Positions 1 through 16,977 of a DNA stretch of 64,000 nt are shown piece after piece. The stretch covers positions 2,046,001-2,110,000 of the forward strand of contig NC_015172.1 of NCBI RefSeq assembly GCF_000190635.1. Reading direction: 5' to 3'. The stretch comes from Syntrophobotulus glycolicus DSM 8271. Lineage in GTDB: Bacteria; Bacillota; Desulfitobacteriia; Desulfitobacteriales; Syntrophobotulaceae. Position numbers and translations under genes: made by a program. The first letter of the stretch is position 1. The number at the start of each line of letters is the position of its first letter. Below the pieces are notes generated by a model that made no database searches, was not told the DNA's origin, and worked only from the letters and a program-made list of their open reading frames with translations.

Positions 1-234
1 CCTTGTTCATCGAAACGTTTCCTTCTTTATTTATATAGATACTCTTTACGGATACTTCGATGTTGGATTTATAACATTTCTGTTTATAAACGATTATATG
101 TTAACCATAGATCAGGTGTGCACTTGTCCGTAAACCAGATCGATAACTTGTCGCCTTTTGTCACTCCGAAGATCGAAACAGCATAACTTACAATACAAGC
201 TATCCTGAGTTTATTGGAAAGAAGGATTGATGCT
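1..234. other. Intergenic leader before the repeat-protein gene
   Basis: AT-rich stretch without a convincing open frame. It presumably carries the promoter of the repeat-protein gene: TTGTCA at 158-163 with CATAAC at 182-187 is a weak -35/-10 pair. A GAAGGA ribosome site at 221-226 precedes the ATG at 235. Nothing else is recognised. Confidence 0.3.
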
Positions 235-1479
235 ATGAATAATCTGGTTTTTAATACTAAAGCCGAAGAACTGAAAACCAGTATTTACGCCCAAGCTCCG
301 GATTTGAGCACAAAACCGTTGCAATTGGACGCTAACGATAATTTGCTGGTCGCCGGGGACTTTACCATTTCTGAAATTACCAACCCTGTTACCATTGCCA
401 ATGCTTCCCTCACCGTCGCCGGTACCGTTACTGTTTCCGAAGTCACCAACCCTGTCACCATTGCCAATGCTTCCCTCACTGTCGCCGGTACCGTCACTGT
501 TTCCGAAGTCACCAACCCTGTTACCATTGCCAATGCTTCCCTCACTGTCGCCGGCACCGTTACTGTTTCCGAAGTCACCAACCCTGTTACCATTGCCAAT
601 GCTTCCCTCACTGTCGCCGGCACCGTTACGGTTTCCGAAGTCACCAACCCTGTTACCATTGCCAATGCTTCCCTCACTGTCGCCGGTACCGTCACTGTTT
701 CCGAAGTCACCAACCCTGTTACCATTGCCAATGCTTCCCTCACTGTCGCCGGTACCGTTACGGTTTCCGAAGTCACCAACCCTGTTACCATTGCCAATGC
801 TTCCCTCACTGTCGCCGGCACCGTCACGGTTTCCGAAGTCACCAACCCTGTTACCATTGCCAATGCTTCCCTCACTGTCGCCGGTACCGTCACTGTTTCC
901 GAAGTCACCAACCCTGTTACCATTGCTAATGCTTCCCTCACCGTCGCCGGTACCGTTACTGTTTCCGAAGTCACCAACCCTGTTACCATTGCCAATGCTT
1001 CCCTCACCGTCGCCGGTACCGTTACTGTTTCCGAAGTCACCAACCCTGTTACCATTGCCAATGCTTCCCTCACTGTCGCCGGCACCGTCACTGTTTCCGA
1101 AGTCACCAACCCTGTTACCATTGCCAATGCTTCCCTCACCGTTTCAGTTGGTGGTTACCTGTTTACGTCTGACTTGGTGGCAGACAACCCTATCACCGGT
1201 ACAGGCGTATTATTTAACAATACGGATATCTCCCAGGTTAAAACGGCATCCCTGCTCTTGTATAACCAGGGAGCTGTTCCCCTAACACTTTCTCTGCAAA
1301 TCAGTCCCACAACAACAGACGGGGATTATATCGACGATCCCAGTTATACCAATGTGGTTTTAGAAGCGAATGAGAAAAAATATATGGCCATAAGCTCTTT
1401 CGCCCATTATGTCCGCCTGCAATATCTCATGGGCGGTTCCACCGGAACAATTACCGCTTACTACAACGCACAAACCTAA
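235..1479 (+). CDS. Tandem-repeat surface-type protein with DUF6385-like C-terminus
   Basis: A 414-residue protein in three parts. A short N-terminal segment (about 1-45) is followed by a repeat region (about 50-305) and a non-repetitive C-terminus of about 110 residues ending in TGTITAYYNAQT. The repeat unit is 22 residues and rich in Thr, Val, Ser and Asn, with the core NPVTIANASL occurring 12 times. Each unit contains one N-A-S tripeptide. The C-terminus resembles the DUF6385 family of Firmicutes (recalled, not searched). No signal peptide or membrane segment is visible. The ATG at 235 is chosen over an upstream TTG at 214 because GAAGGA lies 8 nt before it. A glycosyltransferase follows on the same strand, so a surface or spore-coat glycoprotein is a reasonable inference. 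Function is unproven. Confidence 0.8.
   Translation: MNNLVFNTKAEELKTSIYAQAPDLSTKPLQLDANDNLLVAGDFTISEITNPVTIANASLTVAGTVTVSEVTNPVTIANASLTVAGTVTVSEVTNPVTIANASLTVAGTVTVSEVTNPVTIANASLTVAGTVTVSEVTNPVTIANASLTVAGTVTVSEVTNPVTIANASLTVAGTVTVSEVTNPVTIANASLTVAGTVTVSEVTNPVTIANASLTVAGTVTVSEVTNPVTIANASLTVAGTVTVSEVTNPVTIANASLTVAGTVTVSEVTNPVTIANASLTVAGTVTVSEVTNPVTIANASLTVSVGGYLFTSDLVADNPITGTGVLFNNTDISQVKTASLLLYNQGAVPLTLSLQISPTTTDGDYIDDPSYTNVVLEANEKKYMAISSFAHYVRLQYLMGGSTGTITAYYNAQT
421..1146 (+). repeat. 66-bp tandem repeat array, 11 full units plus one diverged unit
   Basis: Eleven consecutive 66-bp units fill 421-1146 exactly (11 x 66 = 726). A diverged twelfth copy (EIT in place of EVT) lies just upstream at about 355-420. 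Units differ only at a few third-codon positions: GGT/GGC, GTT/GTC, ACT/ACG, GCC/GCT, ACC/ACT. The encoded peptide is therefore identical in all 11 full units apart from the very end of the last. Because the unit is a multiple of three, gain or loss of a unit keeps the frame. Confidence 0.97.
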
Positions 1480-1623: not shown

Positions 1624-3456
1624 ATGGAAAAACAAAAAACCGTCAGCCTCTGCATGATTGTCAGAAATGAAGCCTTACTGCTAGAACGTTGTTTAAACAG
1701 TGTTCAGGGCCTGGTAGATGAAATCATCGTTGTCGACACAGGCTCAACCGATAACACGAAAGAAATCGCCCTGCGCTTTGATGCCAAAATCTATGATTAC
1801 CCATGGAACGACAATTTCAGTGAAGCCAGAAACTACTCGCTCGCGAAAGCGGCTTGCGACTGGATTCTGCTGCTGGATGCGGACGAAGCGTTGTGCCCGC
1901 GGGACAGAGATAAATTCATTCACTTAATCAACACTTGCCCTTATGATGGGTGCCATTTCACCATCTGCAATCATATGAGCAGAGGAAATGAGTATAACCT
2001 TCATCAGGCTTTTCGCTTGCTGAAAAACAACGGACAATATGAATTTTGCGGCGAAATCCATGAACAGATCACCAGAAAAGATCGCCAACCGGCCTTTAGC
2101 CGGCTTTCAGTGGAAGAGATCACGATTGATCATTACGGCTACCTGCCTGAAATCGTAGCCGCTCAAAAAAAGAGGGAGCGTAACCTGCCAATTTTACTCA
2201 AACAAATCGAAGCCGATCCGGAAAACGCCTTTTCTTTATTTAATCTCGGAAATGAATATCTGGCGCAAAACAAAATTGACGATGCCCTAAGCTGGTATGA
2301 AAAAGCATATACCCGTATGGACAAAGGTCAGGCCTATGCTCCTCATTTGTATTATCGCCTGATTATTTGCCTAAACGCGAAACAGGAGTTCCTCAAAGCT
2401 CTCCGCCTGGCGGAGGAAGCTTTACTGGTTTACCCTCGTTGTACAGATATCGCCTACTGCAAAGGATTGATCTATGTCCAGCAATACAATCATCTCCTGG
2501 CCGCAGATGCTTTTCGCCGGTGCCTTGATTTGGGTGATCCTCCAGGAAACTTGAAATTCCTGGAGGGCTGCGGCACTTACCGCCCCTATCTTTCTTTGGG
2601 AGAGATTTATTTACAAAATGAAGCCTATGACCAAGCCATCGAATATTTGACCAAAGCCTTCAACCTTGATCATACTCATTGCGAAGCCTTATACGCTTTA
2701 GGTAAAGCTTATGCCAAAAAGCATAACGACCCAAGCAAAGCGGCAGATGCTCTATCCCACTATTTCTCTAGCCTGGAGCATGTCCCCAACAGCATCGTAT
2801 ACACTGACATCCTGATCAAGGAAAAGATCTATGGTCCCGCCCGTGCCGTTCTGGAACGCTTCGACACCGACCCTGATCATCAAGCGGAAATCACCTTTTT
2901 GCAGAGCAAGCTTCATTTTTTCACCAAAAACTATCCCGCGGCTTACGAAGGCTTTAAGAAAGTTGCCGATGTCAGCTCTCTTCAAAGTGTGCTGCCCAAT
3001 CTTCAAGGAGAAAGCATCCGCTTCATGGCGATCATCGGCCTGCTCCTGGATTCCTTGGGAAATGAATCAATGTCCTATCTGGAGCGTGATTTTGATCCAC
3101 TTTTGTTTCAGATCTACGACCGGCTTCATTCCCTTAGGCAAAACAAGAAACCGGCCGCTTTGGATGCCGATCCCTCCCGTTGTTTACAGATTATTGATGA
3201 ATACCTGGCAATCATCTTAAAAGTGGGAGAATTTGACCTGTTTACCTGTTCCCTGGAGGTGCTGAACCTGGTCGACAGCAAAGAAGTCTTACTGCACCTT
3301 GCCAAGCTGTATCATCAAAATGGCTGTCCCGAACTCACCGTTCAAACCATCCTGTGGTCGATTAAAGAGCTGGACGCCATCGATCTGGAAAATGCCTTTT
3401 TATTGAGGAAAAATTTAATCCATCTCCCTTTTTCTCATTCCACTGTGTCTTGTTGA
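1624..3456 (+). CDS. Family 2 glycosyltransferase with C-terminal TPR repeats
   Basis: A 610-residue protein. The N-terminal GT-A domain (about 1-190) begins TVSLCMIVRNEALLLERC and contains VVDTGSTDNT and the metal-binding LLDADEAL near residue 85, as in SunS-like family 2 transferases. From about residue 190 onward the protein is a run of degenerate TPR helices (for example NAFSLFNLGNEYLAQ). No membrane segment is seen, so it should act in the cytoplasm. The start has GAGGGA 5 nt upstream. GT2-TPR enzymes of this type modify peptides or proteins in known cases, and the TPR part could bind the acceptor. The adjacent Thr/Ser/Asn-rich repeat protein is the obvious candidate acceptor (inference). 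Confidence 0.88.
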   Translation: MEKQKTVSLCMIVRNEALLLERCLNSVQGLVDEIIVVDTGSTDNTKEIALRFDAKIYDYPWNDNFSEARNYSLAKAACDWILLLDADEALCPRDRDKFIHLINTCPYDGCHFTICNHMSRGNEYNLHQAFRLLKNNGQYEFCGEIHEQITRKDRQPAFSRLSVEEITIDHYGYLPEIVAAQKKRERNLPILLKQIEADPENAFSLFNLGNEYLAQNKIDDALSWYEKAYTRMDKGQAYAPHLYYRLIICLNAKQEFLKALRLAEEALLVYPRCTDIAYCKGLIYVQQYNHLLAADAFRRCLDLGDPPGNLKFLEGCGTYRPYLSLGEIYLQNEAYDQAIEYLTKAFNLDHTHCEALYALGKAYAKKHNDPSKAADALSHYFSSLEHVPNSIVYTDILIKEKIYGPARAVLERFDTDPDHQAEITFLQSKLHFFTKNYPAAYEGFKKVADVSSLQSVLPNLQGESIRFMAIIGLLLDSLGNESMSYLERDFDPLLFQIYDRLHSLRQNKKPAALDADPSRCLQIIDEYLAIILKVGEFDLFTCSLEVLNLVDSKEVLLHLAKLYHQNGCPELTVQTILWSIKELDAIDLENAFLLRKNLIHLPFSHSTVSC

Positions 3457-3547: not shown

Positions 3548-6500
3548 TCAGATTATGATCACGATCTCATGTTCCTTCCCATCATCAGCCAAAGTTATTT
3601 GCGGCTCCAAAACAGCCTGACCATCCAGCAGGATTTTTTCTTCTGCCTTTGAGGCATTAATGACCTCGATATGATATTGCGTGCTTCGATATTTATATTT
3701 GATCTTAAACCCGGGCCAGCTTCCCGGAATACAAGGCTTGACAGATATTTTATCCCCTTCAATGCTCAGTCCCAGGATGCCTTCCAGAGCAACCTGATAC
3801 ATCCAGCCTGCGGCTCCCGTATACCAGCTCCATCCGCCGCGGCCGTTATTGGGAGGATATGAGTAAACATCTGCTGCCATAACATAAGGCTCAACCTTGT
3901 ATCTGACGGCTTCCTTGTCTGTACGGGCATGGTTAATGGGGTTAAGCATATTAAACAATTCCACAGCCTTCTCCCCGTCATGCAGTTTTGTATAGGCCCA
4001 GACGGCCCAGATGGCAGCATGAGTGTATTGTCCGCCGTTTTCTCTGACTCCCGGTACATATCCTTGAATATATCCCGGATAAACGCCTGATTGATCGAAA
4101 GGAGGGGTCAGGAGCTTCAGGATTCCCTCATTTTTATCCCATAAATAATTCTCCAAAGCGAGCATGGCGTCTTTTGCTCTGCTTTCCCTGGCAAACCCTG
4201 ATATGACCGCCCAGGACTGGGCAATGGCATCAATTTGGCATTCCATACAGGTGATTGATCCCAGCGGATCGGCATTGTCAAAAAAGGCCCGCCTGTACCA
4301 GGCTCCATCCCAACCGTGTTTTTCTATATGATCCTTTAGCTCTTCCATTACTTTTTGATATCTCTGTGTATTCTCGCTGTCATGCATTCTTTGCGTAATT
4401 GGAATCATCTTCTGCAAAACAGAGAGCAGGAACCAACCCAGCCAGACACTTTCTCCTTTTCCTTCTCTGCCCACAGCACTGAACCCGTCATTCCAGTCCC
4501 CTGTCCCAATGAGCGGGAGTCCGTGCTCCCCGAATTTGAGGCTGTAGTCTATCGCTTTTAAACAATGTTCGTAAATTGTTCCCGTAAGCCCGGACTTAGC
4601 CGGAACGGAATACCTCTCATCTTCATCCGCGGCTAAAGTCTGATCTGCCAAATATCCTGCCTGCTCATCAAGAATGGAGTAATCGGTTGTATGCTCAATA
4701 TAGTCTAGCGTGACATAAGGGAGCCATAACAGATCATCCGAAAATTTTGTTCTGATCCCTTTACCGTTTTCCTGATGCCACCAGTGCTGGACATCCCCTT
4801 CCTCAAACTGCCTTGAGGAATTTAACAATATCTGCTGTCGGGTGATTTGCGGTTCGATCGCCGTCAGCGCCATCACATCCTGCAGCTGGTCCCTGAACCC
4901 AAATGCCCCCCCTGCCTGATAGTAGGCTGAACGAGCCCAGATCCGGCAAACCAGGGTCTGGTAAAGAAGCCAGCGGTTGAATAAGAAATTGAATGATTGA
5001 TCCGGCGTCTCTATCTGAATGGTGCTCAGAAGAGTATCCCAGTAGGTTTTGACTTTGTTCAGGTCATCCTCCACGCTTTCCGGACTGAGCGTCTGAACGG
5101 CTGCTCTGGCTGCAGCGGCATCTTTTTCATCCCCGATCACAAAAAACAGTTTACTTTCTGATCCTGGCCCTATCTTTACTTCTGTTTGGAGGACACCGCA
5201 AGGGTCAATTCCCTGCAATGCTTCCAGCTTCCGTTTCCCTAAACCGGCCGGTCTCTCCAGGCTCCTGTTATTTCCGATGAATTCCTCCCGGCTGCAGGTA
5301 TAGGCAAAATTGTCCCCGCCCAGCACTGTCAGATAAGCTGTACGACCAGTAAATTCCTCCTGATAAGTATTGCGGGCAAAGATTGTTCCATTCTCCTCTT
5401 CAGAAAGAATAAATTGAGCGTTCTGATTGCGGTTTACTCCCAATACCCATTCCATATAATAGTAAACGGCTAAAGTTTTCGTTGTTTTTGTGGTATTGTT
5501 CAGCTTAAGTTCCACTACTTTACAGGATTTATCCATCGGTACATACATGATCGTCTCCTGAACAATGCCCGACCTCTCATGGCTGAATACGGAATACCCC
5601 TGTCCGTGCCTGACCAGATAGGAGCCGTTGCCCATAGCGGGCTTGGGTAAAGGAGACCAGTACTGTCCGCTTTCAATTTCCTTAATATAAACCGCTTCCC
5701 CCGTCTTATCCAATAAAGGGTCATTAAACCAGGGTGAAAGCTTATATTCCCTGCTGTTTTGCGACCAGGTCCAGCTTGAGCCCGCTTCTGACACTACAGA
5801 GCCAAAGACAGGATTGGCTATGACATTGACCCAAGGCATAGGGGTGGCCTTTTCGGGGCCAATTTCGATCACATATTCTTTTCCCTCGCATGTAAACCCA
5901 CCGAATCCGTTATAGTAAAGCAACCCGATTTTGTGATTTTGCCGGGAATGTTCAATTTTTTCAATTTCTGCTTTACTCTGCTCAGCACTCAGAGCATTTT
6001 GGTTCAGCCCAATCGTACGCTCGCCCAGTTTCACCTGCTTGAGAATCTGGTTCCTCAAGGATCCGTTTTCACCGGAAAAAACCAGTCTGGCTGTACTGAA
6101 TAAGAGATACTGGATATCTGGAGGCAATTGGTCTCTCTTCAGAAGGAATACTCCTCCGGGCTTATTCATCAGCCTGCGGGCATGACTGATTCCGATTTTT
6201 TCGTTGATTCTTTCTTGAACGGTCTGATAATAGCCGGTCTTATCCTCATTCATCACGACCAAATCAATAAACAGGCCTTTGATTTTCCAATATTCATGGA
6301 TCTTCAGCATTTGCTCAAGAATATTTAACTGGTCCAGCTCCTGCAGACGGAGAATAATGACCGGCAAATCTCCGGAAATCCCATATGCCCATAAAGATGA
6401 CTGGCCTTTACTGTTATTTTTGACAAAACCGCTTCTTTGCTGATTACTGAGAAAAACCACATGACTGGCCAGGCTCATTAGGAGGTTGGCCTCTTCAAAG

Positions 6501-9500
6501 CTGAGATCTAAGCTGGTCAACTCCATCAGGTTATGGGACCAGGATAATTCCCTTGCTTTTTTCAGCATATTGGAATTTCTGTATTTCTCACTCAAAGTCT
6601 TGATGCTTTGTTTATCTTCCGAGACTCCTGTCAGAAAAAAAACCTCTTTTGTTTTGCCTGGATGGACTCTGACTCTTACTCTCATGCTCATGATTGGGTC
6701 AAGGACAGAACCTGCTGAATTAGATAAGGGCTGATTTGTCTCTAAAGCCCTGGGATTGGCATAGTCCCTGCCCCGTCCAATAAATTTCACTCTGTCGGTT
6801 TCAAATTCCAAATCACCAATTTGCTCCCCTTCTACAAAGACCGTATGCATCAGAAAGAAATCACTGCGGTTGCAATGGTGGCGCGACCTTTTCGAAGCAT
6901 AAAGGGTCCCCTGATCAAAGCCTGTTTGGATGAACAGCTTATTGAAGGCAGGATGGGCCTGGTCTGCCGGTAATTCATCCAGGACGATTTCGGCAAAGCT
7001 TGTCAGTTCAATATCCCGATCATATTTACTTTCATTGGTCAAAGAAACCTTTCTGATTTCCACCGGATCTTCAGGTGATACAAAAATTTCGGTTTGTGTG
7101 ATCACATTTCCGTCTTTTCTGGAGTACCTGATCAAATTGGGAAAACAGGTCACTTTATACTCCTCAACTTGATGATTCAGAGGCTTGGAGAAAGCCGACC
7201 AGACACTGCCTGAATTGAGGTTATGCACATAGATATAGCTGCCGTACTCATCCATTGTCTGATCCTCTCTCCAGCGGGTCAGATACTTTTTATTGTATTT
7301 GCTGTAACCCGAACCAGAGAGAGTAAGCATAACAGAGTATTCACCATTAGATAAAAAATGGGTCCTTGGCAAAACTGTATTTGGGTTACTGTAAGTAACC
7401 GGTTTCTCCCCGAGTTTCTTGGCTTTGCTTGATAATTTTTTTTCTCTGGTTTCTTCAATGATCGGGTTAAATGTATATTCTTTGAGCGGAACCTGTTCCT
7501 GAAGAATAAGCTCCACCGCTTTGATCTGTGGTTCTCTGTGAAACCTCTCTTGCATGCTCTGGTCAAAGACAGCATTGGTTAAGGAAGCCAGGCTCATCCC
7601 CTGGTGATGGGCCATATAGCTTTTTACGATGCTGTATTGCCGTTTATACTGCACTCTGTCCGGTGTAAAATCTATCGCTTCATAGAGACCGAATTGACCG
7701 TTAAAACCGTAGCCCCGCATTTTTCGCAAATTGGCCAAGGCGGTTTTCCCGTCCACCATTAAAGCCATAAAGGTTGAATACGGAGAAATCACCATATCCC
7801 TGGTCAGTCCTCTTTTCAGTCCTAACCCCGGAACGCCGAAGGCTTTGTATTGATAGTTATTTTGAACATCAAAGAGAAAAAAACCTGATTCTGAGATACC
7901 CCATGGGATTTGGCAACTGTCTCCATAGCTTTTTTGAATTTTGACCACGGCCTGATAAGTCTCATCAAGCAAAGTATTTTTAAAATTCTTGATCAATACC
8001 AAAGGCATTAAGAATTCAAACATGGTTCCGCTCCAGGATACCAGGCATCTCTGTCCTTTAATTTTGGTCAAAGGGCGTGACAGCTTAAACCAGTGACTTT
8101 GGGGCACATCCCCTTTAGCAATCGCTAGGAGGCTGGTCTGCCGGGCTTCTGAAGCCATTAAATCATAATAGGATTTATCCAGCCTTTGCTCTGTGACATT
8201 GTAGCCAATGGCAAAAAGCTTTTTTTGCTGATCAAACAAAGGTTTAAAATCCATACTCATTGCCTGCTGGTACAGTTCTTTTTGAATCCTGCCGCTCCTG
8301 TTAAACAAGTCAATGATATTGCTCAAGCCTTCGGCAGCCTTTTGTTTGAATTCAGCGGAAAGATCCTCTTCCAGAAGTCTCCTGTATACAACTGTCAGTT
8401 CCCGGTAAGTGCAGTCTCTGAATTCCGGATCTGATCTTTCCGGCCAAGATTTTCGTTCAAGGCTGAGCCAGGGGAAAAATCTATCCATTTCCGCCTGAGT
8501 ATCCTCAATCATCTTCCAGAGACTGTATCTCCAGAACTCCTCACCGCTTCCGTCCGGCTTTTTGATTTCCCGCCGCCATTTTTTCAAGAATCCGTAAAGC
8601 TTCTGAAGATCAATTTCGACCTCAAATTGCTTTAATTCCTCCAAAAATTGAATGATTGTCTCCGTATTTTTCTTTTTTTCATCGAAGGCATTCAAGACTT
8701 GGCAAGTATCTTTGAACCCCTGAATGATTCTCCGGTCAATGACCTTCTGATCAATCAATTCCCCTAACCCGTTTTTAAGAGCCAGGTAATATCCGGCCAG
8801 ATTGCCGCTGTCTACGGTTGAGACATAGATTGGATGCAGAGGCTTCAGGGTCTCCGTATCATACCAATTGTATAGATGCCCGTTCCATTTGCCCAGCTTG
8901 CCGATAGTCTGCAGCATTTTCTCAGTCCGTTCGATCATCAGGCCGGCTGGAATATAGCCGAAATCATAAGCTGAAAGATTGGCCAAAAAAGCTAACCCGA
9001 TATTCGTTGGTGAGGTGCGGTGAGCAATTCCTTTATTTGGCTCAAGCTGGACATTATCCGGGGGCAGGTAATGATCGGCCTCATTAATGAAACGGTCGAA
9101 AAACCCCCATATTTCCCGGGCAAAAAATCTCAGTTCCTGAATTTCTTCTTGATTAAATTTTTGCTCTTTTTCCGAAGAAAGGCTTAACCTGTAAGCCGCC
9201 CAGGGTGAACCAAGCCAGCCAAACATCAAACATCCGAGCAAGATTGCCGCCGAAGTACTTAAAGAGGGGAATAAGACTGCCATCACCAGACTGACCATTA
9301 GCCCCGGCAGCATCTTACGGTAATAGGTCAGAGCATTTGTGCCAACTCTTCTCTCCGAATCCGCCGCGGTTTCCCACTCCAGCAGGTACCTCCCTGTAAT
9401 TTGCCTGACCAGACTGCGAAAAACAGCATCAAGCTGAATCAAGGCCTGATACGGCAAAACAGCCAGAGCAAACAGGATTCTGATAAACTCTATCTTTATT

Positions 9501-12049
9501 TCCCGGTTGAAAATTCGATAAGTCAGACTCCTGGTGATGATTCTTTCCGAGAGATTGATGATGAAGGGCAGCCCCATACTGAACAGGACAAGGCCCATAA
9601 TATAGGGCAAAACATTTTCGAAAACAGCAAAGCCCAAAATGATCAGGGTAAGCTGAAAGGGCTCTTCCAGACTTCGCCGCAGATTATCGAGAATCTTCCA
9701 GCGTGACACGACAGGCAGCTCACTGTGAAAAATATAGCGGGCGATCTGCCAGTCCCCTCTGATCCAGCGGTGCAAACGGCTGGTATAAGCTAAATATTTG
9801 CCCGGATAGGCATCAAAAAACTCAATATCCGTAGCCAGTGCCGTACGGGCAAATAATCCCTCAATCAGGTCATGACTTAAAATTCTGTTTTCCGGGAACC
9901 GGTTTCCCGTCACCTGATTAAAGCTTTGTAAATCATAGATTCCCTTTCCGGTAAAAATACCTTCGCCGAAAAGGTCCTGGTAAATATCTGAAATGGCACA
10001 GGTATAGGGATCTATTCCGGCATTACCGGTAAAAAGCCTGGAGAAGCCCGTTGCTGAGGCACTGCTGGCCAGAATCCCGATTCTGGGCTGGATGATGCCG
10101 TAACCGGTGTTGATCAACTTTCCTTCCGCATTTAATTTGGCACTGTGCAAAGGATGGGCCATGATCCCGACCAGCTTGATCACTGCCTGGCTGGGCAGCA
10201 CAGTATCGGCATCAGCCGTAACAACATAGCGGATATTATGCAGCTTGGAGATCGCGCCGATCCGGATATTGTAGTCTGAGTTTTGATCATTATTGATCAA
10301 CAGATTGTTAAACTGAATGAGTTTTCCGCGTTTTCTCTCCCACCCCATCCATTTTTTTTCTTTTTCATTCCAGGTTCTTTTTCGATGGAAATAATAAAAG
10401 CAATCCGTATCATACTTTTTATTCAGTTTGAGAATTTCCTTTTGGGCTGTATAGATGATTTCTTGATCATATTCTGCTTCTTCCTGGCGACAGTCCGCAA
10501 AATCACCCAGTATCGCGAAGAAGAGGTTGCTTGAACGGTTATTGAGATAATGCTGCTCCAGATGGGCAAACAATTCCTTGACCTTGGCTGCCTGCTTAAA
10601 AATTGCCGGAATCACAACGATCGTCTTATTTTCTTCGTCTAATCCCTGTTCGAAATCGATTTTCGGTAAAAAGGCAGGAGGAAGCAGCTTACAGGCAACT
10701 CGATTAATGGTATAAACCGCTATTCCGTTTCCAAGCACCAAAACAGAAAAAAAAAGCAAAACTAAAGGCAAGCCGGCGTTAAGATGCTCCGTTCCCGTGA
10801 TCTTCCAGAAAAAAATCCCTATGATCAGAAGGGTAATCGCGATAATTGCGGAGAAATATCCTGATCCAGGTTTTTGCCTGAAGAAGCAATTGATGCTGTG
10901 GAGCTTTCTTTTTACCCTGCCGAAGCTGATCGCCAGTTCTTTTTCAATTTCTATTCTCCCTGCCCCCAAGAGGTAATATCCTACATGTTTTTGGGGAAGT
11001 TCTGCTGCATCCCGGGCATACTCCCGGATCAATCTGGCCACAGATATTTCTGATACTTTATATTGATGGGCCAGGTTTTCAATTTCATGTCTGTATTTGT
11101 CCCTGGACCCGAAATCCATTTGATTAAAGACACCGGCCGGATCATTTCTCAATATTTCCTGGACCAAACTGACATCCTCAAAAAACGCCGACCAGTTTTC
11201 GGAATTGACCAATTTGATGGCAGCAATAATATTGCCCATTCCGACACCGGAGGAAGTTTGTGAATATTGTTCCGCCGCCATAATATCTTCAACCGTTTTA
11301 TTGCTGTTGGCCGCAATATTGTCCAGCCAATTCAACAGCACTTTAGCATCAGGACCATAATCCTTTAATCTCCTCGCCACTCTTTCTATGAAAACAGGTG
11401 AGTATTCCTGGCGCGGATTTTGCCTGATTCTTTGTTTTTCTTCCAGATCGCTGTTTAATATAGATTTCAGCCAATTTTCAGCCGATTCTCTCTCTCTTTG
11501 GGTGGATATGATTTTTTCTACTTGAGAATGGAGTCTTTCCAGGAGAATAATCCGCAAAATAATCGGAATGGCCCATATCTCGGCTGAGGATAATGGCGCT
11601 TCTTTCTGGTATCTGCTGACAAATAGTCTTAACGCATCAAAATCAAGCTCATCATGGGCATATTTAATATACTCTGTAATCAAAACATAAATCCTGGGGT
11701 AGCCGGAATGATCTCCTTCTTTAAAATAATTCAGCTTTGCTTCACAAGGCCTGGACAGGTCTTTTTCCGTTTCTTTCAGCAAATCATTGATCAGATAATA
11801 ATTATCCAGGTACCATTCCGCCGCCGGTATGACATCCTCGGTCATGTAATAATAATTATTGATTTCCGTGTAAGCACTTTGAATAGAGGCTTTTTTTGTT
11901 TTGATATAATCCTGAAGGCTTATTCCGTTTTTACTTAAACCCATCCAGTTATGATACTGGGCCAACTCGAACGCTTTATTCTCTAAATCTAATTTATACC
12001 CGTCCATATTTAAACTTTTTTCATTTTTGGTGGTATTTATGCTTTTCAT
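3548..12049 (-). CDS. ndvB: Cyclic beta-1,2-glucan synthase-like giant protein (NdvB/ChvB family)
   Basis: A 2833-residue multidomain enzyme. Its N-terminal region leads into membrane segments near 400-445 and a GT84-type transferase domain with ADADTVLP (about 615) and RWIRGDW (about 763), with further membrane helices to about 950. A glycoamylase-like module follows (VSTVDSGNLAGYY near 1080; YMAHHQGMSL near 1480). The C-terminal half is GH94-like and carries GTGDWNDG near 2516 followed by GKGESVW, the acid-motif region of GH94 phosphorylases. In known homologues the GT84 part builds beta-1,2-glucan from UDP-glucose and the GH94 part controls chain length. GAGGT lies about 8 nt before the ATG. 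It has its own terminator and no operon partners, so the exact glucan made is unknown. Confidence 0.9.
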   Translation of the reverse strand: MKSINTTKNEKSLNMDGYKLDLENKAFELAQYHNWMGLSKNGISLQDYIKTKKASIQSAYTEINNYYYMTEDVIPAAEWYLDNYYLINDLLKETEKDLSRPCEAKLNYFKEGDHSGYPRIYVLITEYIKYAHDELDFDALRLFVSRYQKEAPLSSAEIWAIPIILRIILLERLHSQVEKIISTQRERESAENWLKSILNSDLEEKQRIRQNPRQEYSPVFIERVARRLKDYGPDAKVLLNWLDNIAANSNKTVEDIMAAEQYSQTSSGVGMGNIIAAIKLVNSENWSAFFEDVSLVQEILRNDPAGVFNQMDFGSRDKYRHEIENLAHQYKVSEISVARLIREYARDAAELPQKHVGYYLLGAGRIEIEKELAISFGRVKRKLHSINCFFRQKPGSGYFSAIIAITLLIIGIFFWKITGTEHLNAGLPLVLLFFSVLVLGNGIAVYTINRVACKLLPPAFLPKIDFEQGLDEENKTIVVIPAIFKQAAKVKELFAHLEQHYLNNRSSNLFFAILGDFADCRQEEAEYDQEIIYTAQKEILKLNKKYDTDCFYYFHRKRTWNEKEKKWMGWERKRGKLIQFNNLLINNDQNSDYNIRIGAISKLHNIRYVVTADADTVLPSQAVIKLVGIMAHPLHSAKLNAEGKLINTGYGIIQPRIGILASSASATGFSRLFTGNAGIDPYTCAISDIYQDLFGEGIFTGKGIYDLQSFNQVTGNRFPENRILSHDLIEGLFARTALATDIEFFDAYPGKYLAYTSRLHRWIRGDWQIARYIFHSELPVVSRWKILDNLRRSLEEPFQLTLIILGFAVFENVLPYIMGLVLFSMGLPFIINLSERIITRSLTYRIFNREIKIEFIRILFALAVLPYQALIQLDAVFRSLVRQITGRYLLEWETAADSERRVGTNALTYYRKMLPGLMVSLVMAVLFPSLSTSAAILLGCLMFGWLGSPWAAYRLSLSSEKEQKFNQEEIQELRFFAREIWGFFDRFINEADHYLPPDNVQLEPNKGIAHRTSPTNIGLAFLANLSAYDFGYIPAGLMIERTEKMLQTIGKLGKWNGHLYNWYDTETLKPLHPIYVSTVDSGNLAGYYLALKNGLGELIDQKVIDRRIIQGFKDTCQVLNAFDEKKKNTETIIQFLEELKQFEVEIDLQKLYGFLKKWRREIKKPDGSGEEFWRYSLWKMIEDTQAEMDRFFPWLSLERKSWPERSDPEFRDCTYRELTVVYRRLLEEDLSAEFKQKAAEGLSNIIDLFNRSGRIQKELYQQAMSMDFKPLFDQQKKLFAIGYNVTEQRLDKSYYDLMASEARQTSLLAIAKGDVPQSHWFKLSRPLTKIKGQRCLVSWSGTMFEFLMPLVLIKNFKNTLLDETYQAVVKIQKSYGDSCQIPWGISESGFFLFDVQNNYQYKAFGVPGLGLKRGLTRDMVISPYSTFMALMVDGKTALANLRKMRGYGFNGQFGLYEAIDFTPDRVQYKRQYSIVKSYMAHHQGMSLASLTNAVFDQSMQERFHREPQIKAVELILQEQVPLKEYTFNPIIEETREKKLSSKAKKLGEKPVTYSNPNTVLPRTHFLSNGEYSVMLTLSGSGYSKYNKKYLTRWREDQTMDEYGSYIYVHNLNSGSVWSAFSKPLNHQVEEYKVTCFPNLIRYSRKDGNVITQTEIFVSPEDPVEIRKVSLTNESKYDRDIELTSFAEIVLDELPADQAHPAFNKLFIQTGFDQGTLYASKRSRHHCNRSDFFLMHTVFVEGEQIGDLEFETDRVKFIGRGRDYANPRALETNQPLSNSAGSVLDPIMSMRVRVRVHPGKTKEVFFLTGVSEDKQSIKTLSEKYRNSNMLKKARELSWSHNLMELTSLDLSFEEANLLMSLASHVVFLSNQQRSGFVKNNSKGQSSLWAYGISGDLPVIILRLQELDQLNILEQMLKIHEYWKIKGLFIDLVVMNEDKTGYYQTVQERINEKIGISHARRLMNKPGGVFLLKRDQLPPDIQYLLFSTARLVFSGENGSLRNQILKQVKLGERTIGLNQNALSAEQSKAEIEKIEHSRQNHKIGLLYYNGFGGFTCEGKEYVIEIGPEKATPMPWVNVIANPVFGSVVSEAGSSWTWSQNSREYKLSPWFNDPLLDKTGEAVYIKEIESGQYWSPLPKPAMGNGSYLVRHGQGYSVFSHERSGIVQETIMYVPMDKSCKVVELKLNNTTKTTKTLAVYYYMEWVLGVNRNQNAQFILSEEENGTIFARNTYQEEFTGRTAYLTVLGGDNFAYTCSREEFIGNNRSLERPAGLGKRKLEALQGIDPCGVLQTEVKIGPGSESKLFFVIGDEKDAAAARAAVQTLSPESVEDDLNKVKTYWDTLLSTIQIETPDQSFNFLFNRWLLYQTLVCRIWARSAYYQAGGAFGFRDQLQDVMALTAIEPQITRQQILLNSSRQFEEGDVQHWWHQENGKGIRTKFSDDLLWLPYVTLDYIEHTTDYSILDEQAGYLADQTLAADEDERYSVPAKSGLTGTIYEHCLKAIDYSLKFGEHGLPLIGTGDWNDGFSAVGREGKGESVWLGWFLLSVLQKMIPITQRMHDSENTQRYQKVMEELKDHIEKHGWDGAWYRRAFFDNADPLGSITCMECQIDAIAQSWAVISGFARESRAKDAMLALENYLWDKNEGILKLLTPPFDQSGVYPGYIQGYVPGVRENGGQYTHAAIWAVWAYTKLHDGEKAVELFNMLNPINHARTDKEAVRYKVEPYVMAADVYSYPPNNGRGGWSWYTGAAGWMYQVALEGILGLSIEGDKISVKPCIPGSWPGFKIKYKYRSTQYHIEVINASKAEEKILLDGQAVLEPQITLADDGKEHEIVIII

Positions 12050-15609: not shown

Positions 15610-15741
15610 AGACCGTTCTCTTCAATGTTATAAAGGATAACCGACTTAGGTTTAAGAACAGCATAAGAGAGCGTTTCAGATTTTGTGTAAACCTTCATGT
15701 TGATGCTAAGATAAGAGCATAAACATGGAGGTTTTTTGTTA

Positions 15742-16977
15742 ATGGCAAAGAGGAGAATCACCCCCGAGAGAAGAGAACAGCGGAAAAAGTTACTGGAAAT
15801 GCTGCAGGAAGCAGGGATCAACGACGTCTCAGGCGTACAGAACTTATTCAAAGAAATGGTCAGTACCGTCCTGGAAAACGGGCTGGAAGCAGAGATGGAA
15901 GACGAACTGGGTTACAGCAAATACGACTACCGGAATAAAGAAACAGACAACAGCCGCAATGGCTACAGCGAAAAAACCATCAAAACCAGCCTAGGAGATA
16001 TGGATATTTCCGTTCCCCGTGACCGCAAAGGTCACTTCGAGCCGCAGATCATTAAAAAACAGCAGACCACACTCTCCGGAGACATCGAAGAGAAGATTCT
16101 GTCCATGTATGCCAAAGGCATGACCACAGGAGACATTGAATCCCATATTCGTGAAATTTACGGCATAGAAGTTTCAGACAGCACCATAAGCCGCGTCACC
16201 GACAAAATCCTGCCGGTAGTCAAAGAATGGCAAAGCCGCCCGTTGGAAAACATTTATGCCGTCGTATTCATGGACGCAATTCATTTTCATGTACGCAGCG
16301 AAGGTCAAATTGTCAAGAAAGCAGTCTACATCGCCATTGGCGTCCAAATGGATGGCATCAAAGACGTCCTGGGCATGTGGATCGGTGAGAACGAAAGCGC
16401 GAAATTCTGGCTTTCCGTGATGAATGGGATTAAAAACCGTGGCACAGAAGATATTCTTATTGCGTGTGTAGACGGCCTCACAGGTTTCACCAGTGCCATT
16501 GAAGCAGTGTTTCCCAAGACGGAAATTCAGCAATGCATCATCCACCAGATCCGGAACACAACAAGGTTTGTGTCCTATAAAGACATCAAAGCTCTTATGG
16601 CTGACCTGAAGAACGTTTACGCAGCTGTTGATGAACAAACCGCCCTTTATGAGCTGGATACCTTTGATGGAAGATGGGGAAACAAATACCCCAAAATAGC
16701 CCTGTCCTGGAAAGCCAACTGGGCTAATTTATCCACCTATTTCAAATATCCACAGGAAGTCCGAAAGCTGATTTATACCACCAACGCCATTGAAGGATTT
16801 AATCGTCAGCTCCGTAAAGTCACCAAAAGCAAATCCGTCTTTCCAACCGATGACAGCTTACTCAAAATGCTTTACCTGGCCATGATGGACATAACGAAAA
16901 AATGGACAGGCAGGCGGCAGGACTGGGGGCAGATTCATTCCCAGTTGCAGATTTTCTTCGGAGACCGGTTGGAATAA
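15742..16977 (+). CDS. IS256-family (mutator-type) transposase
   Basis: A 411-residue DDE transposase. The catalytic motifs are visible: VVFMDAIHFH (first Asp), ACVDGLTGF (second Asp) and TTNAIEGFNRQLRK (Glu). QQCIIHQIRNT is the family signature between the second Asp and the Glu. The helix-turn-helix region lies around SMYAKGMTTGDIESHI. GGAGG at 15727-15731 precedes the ATG at 15742 by 10 nt; a TTG at 15736 is less likely. The frame is full length and uninterrupted, so the copy may be active. Confidence 0.95.
   Translation: MAKRRITPERREQRKKLLEMLQEAGINDVSGVQNLFKEMVSTVLENGLEAEMEDELGYSKYDYRNKETDNSRNGYSEKTIKTSLGDMDISVPRDRKGHFEPQIIKKQQTTLSGDIEEKILSMYAKGMTTGDIESHIREIYGIEVSDSTISRVTDKILPVVKEWQSRPLENIYAVVFMDAIHFHVRSEGQIVKKAVYIAIGVQMDGIKDVLGMWIGENESAKFWLSVMNGIKNRGTEDILIACVDGLTGFTSAIEAVFPKTEIQQCIIHQIRNTTRFVSYKDIKALMADLKNVYAAVDEQTALYELDTFDGRWGNKYPKIALSWKANWANLSTYFKYPQEVRKLIYTTNAIEGFNRQLRKVTKSKSVFPTDDSLLKMLYLAMMDITKKWTGRRQDWGQIHSQLQIFFGDRLE

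Follow-up and report, generated by a model that had tools for sequence, protein, structure and literature searches.

The window, a stretch of 64,000 nucleotides from the genome of Syntrophobotulus glycolicus DSM 8271 (NC_015172.1, positions 2,046,001 to 2,110,000), opens with a gene that carries a long 66-bp tandem array, and a glycosyltransferase gene follows on the same strand. The features are listed below in window positions unless stated otherwise.

1 to 10, minus strand: start of a divergent DUF6385 gene of 190 amino acids (whole gene at genome 2045438-2046010), its body outside the window
163 to 190, plus strand: sigma-K-like promoter (P about 0.002) of the form AC-N17-CATAACTTA, located 72 bases upstream of the ATG
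235 to 1479, plus strand: open reading frame of 414 amino acids, with the ATG at 235 and a ribosome-binding site, GAAGGA, at 221-226
235 to 366, plus strand: conserved N-terminal segment beginning MNNLVFNT, its first eight residues invariant among five aligned proteins
367 to 1139, plus strand: tandem array of 11.7 units of 66 bp (22 amino acids), from Tandem Repeats Finder and set in codon register
1141 to 1476, plus strand: C-terminal domain, from Pfam DUF6385 (PF19912) and AlphaFold2
1624 to 3456, plus strand: GT2 glycosyltransferase with TPR repeats, 610 amino acids, from Pfam matches to GT2 (3.2e-21) and TPR

The repeat protein contains no cysteine and 76 threonines, and serine and threonine together make up 32% of the array region. 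An alternative, longer reading frame starts from a TTG at 214 without an obvious ribosome-binding site, while a long antisense reading frame at 285-1139 was rejected as a consequence of the repetition, since the unit reads open in five of its six frames. Elsewhere in the window, a single reading frame of 2833 amino acids on the minus strand (3548-12049) combines GH94 and glucoamylase-like domains and resembles cyclic beta-glucan synthases, and a Mutator-family transposase gene (PF00872, 1.9e-121) occupies 15736-16977 on the plus strand.

Upstream of the window, the divergent gene is followed by a second DUF6385 gene, and the same region contains two CBM96-collagen genes, one of which has a C1q match, and a gene with a sub-threshold match to the BclA C-terminal domain. 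A collagen-like gene just upstream of the window (genome 2041960-2043636; 5960-7636 of the upstream locus, L035) carries 26.6 nearly perfect 27-bp units (GNTGPTGPT), in which the DNA is more uniform (pS 0.021) than in the 66-bp array. A second collagen-like gene (L035 3778-5793) combines an N-terminal CBM96 domain with an array of 54-bp repeats.

Tandem Repeats Finder placed the array at 368-1139 (period 66, 11.7 copies, 96% matches, no indels, score 1404), one base inside the codon register that starts at 367, and returned no second noteworthy array in the window. The initial annotation had described eleven 66-bp units at 421-1146, all encoding the same peptide and differing only at synonymous positions. 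The array is real, but it is a little longer than first described, extending over 367-1139 and including a further upstream copy at 367-432. Identity of the peptide, VSEVTNPVTIANASLTVAGTVT, holds for the ten complete units 2-11 (433-1092), and the restriction of differences to synonymous positions likewise holds for this core and not for the edges: unit 1 (367-432) has two isoleucines in place of valine, unit 12 (from 1093) is truncated, and the eleventh unit as first delimited (1081-1146) ends in serine rather than alanine, as it extends into the unique C-terminal sequence. The codon alternations that had been pointed out (GGT/GGC, GTT/GTC, ACT/ACG) are correct. Long repeats were also seen in another protein type, as two genomes of one genus in the same order (L037, L041) encode a protein resembling translation initiation factor IF-2 whose N-terminal part contains a long GPRQGYQGQSQ repeat.

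A single scan of genome contigs recovered four full-length relatives of the repeat protein, in a Bacillota MAG (L042), Clostridium sartagoforme (L043), a Lachnospiraceae MAG (L044) and Acetanaerobacterium elongatum (L045). All four begin with MNNLVFNT and end in a DUF6385-type C-terminal domain. Between these ends, the type and number of units vary from genus to genus, with five units of 28 amino acids in the Bacillota MAG, irregular units of 15-21 amino acids in C. sartagoforme, 6.6 units of 13 amino acids in the Lachnospiraceae MAG and 2.3 units of 26 amino acids in A. elongatum. A residue pattern of the type V-T-I-x-N-x-x-L-T-V is nevertheless common to the units of S. glycolicus and its relatives. 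Comparison of these sequences indicates that the ends are old and that the arrays were replaced or re-expanded lineage by lineage.

Across units 2-11 of S. glycolicus, the variable sites are six third-codon positions (codons 8, 11, 16, 19, 21 and 22), and the 45 unit pairs show 104 synonymous and no non-synonymous differences (pS 0.118, pN 0). With about 30% of random changes expected to be silent in this 22-residue unit, six silent codons out of six would arise by chance with P of about 0.001. Strong selection on the repeat peptide, as the initial annotation had proposed together with a comparison of the dN/dS type between units, is therefore upheld by that comparison in S. glycolicus and much more strongly in the Bacillota MAG, where all 18 variable codons of the five units are silent (pS 0.385, pN 0; chance 0.3^18, about 4e-10). 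Amino acid changes as frequent as silent ones in relatives would have spoken against this view; they are not seen in the Bacillota MAG or in A. elongatum, whose two units give pS 0.66 and pN 0.018. In the Lachnospiraceae MAG, selection looks weaker (pN/pS 0.23). Values computed for two other arrays, L060 and the first collagen gene, were left aside because their units had been out of register or frame. The repeat peptide is under strong purifying selection.

These figures also bear on the possibility that the units are identical only because duplication and gene conversion were very recent, with no special constraint on the peptide. Low divergence between the units and the shuffling of their haplotypes would agree with such a history, as would the still greater uniformity of the neighboring collagen array. 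However, the exclusively silent variation in S. glycolicus argues against it, as do the units of the Bacillota MAG, which differ from one another at as many as 14 of 84 bases, and the excess of pS over pN in A. elongatum. Identical peptides therefore persist even in arrays whose DNA is not of recent origin, and recency alone, already disfavored, is improbable.

Recent duplication or gene conversion, the other part of the original proposal, fits the data, as there are nine haplotypes among the ten core units and all four combinations occur at three site pairs within 10 bp. The two processes are indistinguishable, however, because there is no significant order along the array (lag-3 similarity, P 0.065); a higher-order structure of three units was rejected on the same value. 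The shuffling of haplotypes in S. glycolicus suggests exchange between units, and recurrent mutation may be another source of the site combinations. The array might also owe its length to the assembly, with copies collapsed or miscounted, given that the genome was assembled from 454 and Illumina reads only (PMC3156405), which are judged to be shorter than the 772-bp array. Against this stand a finished genome at 215x coverage, six variable sites whose nine combinations help to place the units, and the arrays in the relatives. A substantial assembly effect is thus quite improbable; the array certainly exists, and any doubt is limited to the exact count.

The glycosyltransferase gene is a conserved neighbor of the repeat gene. 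In five of five loci (S. glycolicus and the four distant relatives), a GT2-TPR gene lies directly 3' of the repeat gene, and the enzymes share 35-39% identity in alignment. In a further 25 loci of the family, a gene with the DTGSxD motif of the enzyme was found within the 1.5-kb flanks of 12 loci, whereas the remaining 60 kb of the window contained none; no DTGSxD glycosyltransferase was present in the 1.5-kb flanks of the remaining 13. The repeat protein and the GT2-TPR enzyme are one case of a widespread and so far undescribed gene pair. The nearest solved relatives of the enzyme include GmaR (E 8e-39), SunS (E 1e-25) and TPR proteins. GmaR and SunS act on proteins or peptides.

The C-terminal domain is assigned to DUF6385 through residues 331-414 (1225-1476; E 1.7e-13, 50.9 bits against a Pfam cut-off of 26.8). 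The Pfam entry gives no function, and no mention of DUF6385 was found in the full-text literature searched. AlphaFold2 predicts a confident jelly-roll-like beta sandwich for the S. glycolicus domain, and pLDDT values of 76-92 were obtained for that of C. sartagoforme. Structural comparison of the modeled domain returned XepA (Z 11.3), YomS (10.5), 7a02 (10.3), PirA (10.1), Ena2A (9.9) and BclA (7.8), scores that lie too near one another to favor any particular family.

The fold of the stalk is less easily modeled. For the repeat of S. glycolicus, AlphaFold2 gives a solenoid with pLDDT mostly above 90, whereas the naturally varied repeat of C. sartagoforme is modeled at a pLDDT of about 30-50. 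For perfect repeats, AlphaFold2 has a known tendency to return confident solenoids too often (PMC11795689), and the solenoid model is probably an artifact; a beta-solenoid stalk, with its matches to tailspikes, was accordingly set aside. Sequence profiles make a trimeric triple beta-spiral a reasonable alternative, as the C. sartagoforme repeat (L043 6001-7728) matches the adenovirus shaft profile PF00608 at 5.5e-22 and PDB 3izo at 1.5e-7. PF00608 matches the repeat of the Bacillota MAG at 7e-4, below the cut-off, and a Pfam search found no such match in the S. glycolicus repeat.

Matches of this kind could also point to a prophage tail-fiber or tailspike-like gene. Such an origin would account for the weak Gp5_C and Adeno_shaft profile matches, a single weak PHROGs tail-fiber match in the Bacillota MAG and the alignment of the modeled stalk to tailspike beta-helices. 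However, the tailspike match depends on the solenoid model, the C-terminal domain has no PHROGs match, the neighbors are not phage genes, and no relative was found encoded on viral contigs. A phage gene is already disfavored, and it is the least probable of the explanations considered.

Several features of the locus point instead to the spore surface. Syntrophobotulus glycolicus sporulates (PMC3156405), and the sigma-K-like promoter before the repeat gene conforms to the consensus AC-N16/17-CATA-N3-TA, in which a spacer of 16 or 17 bases was allowed and whose significance in S. glycolicus was estimated against dinucleotide-shuffled versions of the upstream 100 bp. The same consensus was used, there with a 16-base spacer, for the appendage genes of Clostridium taeniosporum (PMC5749712). 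Similar promoters stand before the gene that opens the cassette in C. sartagoforme (P 0.0065) and in the Lachnospiraceae MAG (P 0.038), while the Bacillota MAG and A. elongatum have no perfect form, only forms with one mismatch. The two upstream CBM96-collagen genes of S. glycolicus are a further such feature. In three of the relatives, the gene preceding the repeat gene encodes a CBM96-like N-terminal part, as identified by Pfam in the Bacillota MAG and C. sartagoforme and by eye in A. elongatum. Of the 398 genomes sampled from the phylum, 56 encode DUF6385. SpoIVA is encoded in 55 of these 56, compared with 286 of the 342 genomes without DUF6385 (Fisher P 0.0017, not corrected for phylogeny), an association that is weak because 86% of the sampled genomes have SpoIVA.

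An unlikely reading is that of a vegetative, non-spore adhesin or stalk glycoprotein, on the cell surface or secreted, whose repeats would serve as a spacer, with the reach set by their copy number. A terminal jelly-roll on a repeat stalk is common in surface proteins generally, and the DUF6385 fold also matches the non-spore domains of XepA/YomS and PirA. However, the collagen-like neighboring genes, the sigma-K-like promoters and the near restriction of DUF6385 to genomes with SpoIVA argue against this reading, as does the result of Pfam searches, which found no sorting or anchoring domain in the S. glycolicus protein.

On balance, the repeat protein more probably than not belongs to the spore surface as a glycosylated stalk of repeats that ends in a jelly-roll, expressed under sigma-K, modified by the GT2-TPR enzyme and with its units held by selection. 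The location on the spore is suggested by the spore-gene-like surroundings, and the control by sigma-K and the fiber shape of the stalk are likewise presumed. The protein would consist of the conserved N-terminal segment, an elongated, beta-rich and Thr/Ser-rich stalk of 22-residue repeats, and the C-terminal jelly-roll of DUF6385. The sigma-K-type promoter would place its production in the mother cell and late in sporulation, and by analogy with the action of SgtA on BclA3, the adjoining GT2-TPR enzyme may O-glycosylate the Thr and Ser residues of the stalk. Purifying selection would hold the peptide unit identical because, as proposed here, each unit serves as a structural module and an enzyme substrate alike. 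In-frame duplication and exchange between units would create, lengthen and homogenize the array, separately in each lineage.

A broader reading is possible, though doubtful: DUF6385 proteins might be undescribed subunits of clostridial spore-surface fibers, in which an Ena-like jelly-roll ends a glycosylated beta-repeat stalk served by a dedicated GT-TPR enzyme, with the stalk units replaced or re-expanded between lineages and both ends conserved. In some lineages, silent divergence between units of identical peptide may itself be favored, limiting recombination within the array. The conserved pairing with a protein-type glycosyltransferase gives DUF6385 a testable function, in glycosylated spore-surface fibers of non-pathogenic clostridia, and the arrays provide a clean natural case of peptide-level selection on tandem repeats with silently drifting DNA.

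Among known systems, the adenovirus-type shaft repeat (triple beta-spiral, PF00608) is matched by the repeat of C. sartagoforme and not by that of S. glycolicus, and the likeness is probably one of convergence. The Ena subunits of the Bacillus cereus group resemble the modeled C-terminal domain (7a02, Z 10.3, rmsd 2.6 over 97 residues; 9i0y, 9.9; 8pdz, 8.9), but XepA and YomS score as high, and the comparison is attractive for biological reasons only. A sequence link from DUF6385 to Ena was tried and rejected, since a profile search of PDB sequences returned no Ena and its best match was an unrelated module (9e-4). Furthermore, the N-terminal connector of Ena contains cysteines for disulfide links (PMC8619143), whereas the S. 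glycolicus protein is free of them. The appendage locus of C. taeniosporum (P29a/b, GP85, CL2) is comparable in that this clostridial cluster encodes spore-surface proteins, collagen-like glycoproteins and repeat proteins among them, and that its predicted sigma-K promoters follow the consensus given above; in the part of its published description considered here, however, the repeats are of 65-127 residues with DUF11, and DUF6385 was not seen (PMC5749712). The collagen GXX repeat of BclA is absent from the S. glycolicus protein, which has no Pfam Collagen match, but is present in two upstream neighbors.

The BclA3/SgtA pair of the Clostridioides difficile exosporium differs in that the BclA3 stalk is a collagen-like GPT repeat rather than a beta-type 22-residue repeat with a DUF6385 end, and in that SgtA has 358 residues compared with 610 in the GT2-TPR enzyme. 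SgtA, encoded beside bclA3 and built of a glycosyltransferase domain and TPR repeats, adds O-GlcNAc to threonines of the BclA3 repeat (PMC7157674), a modification that has been shown for that pair and would be expected of the S. glycolicus pair. In both systems, a repeat-rich protein, presumably also of the surface in S. glycolicus, is encoded beside a GT-A glycosyltransferase with TPR repeats (PMC7157674), and a Thr-rich repeat is the likely acceptor.
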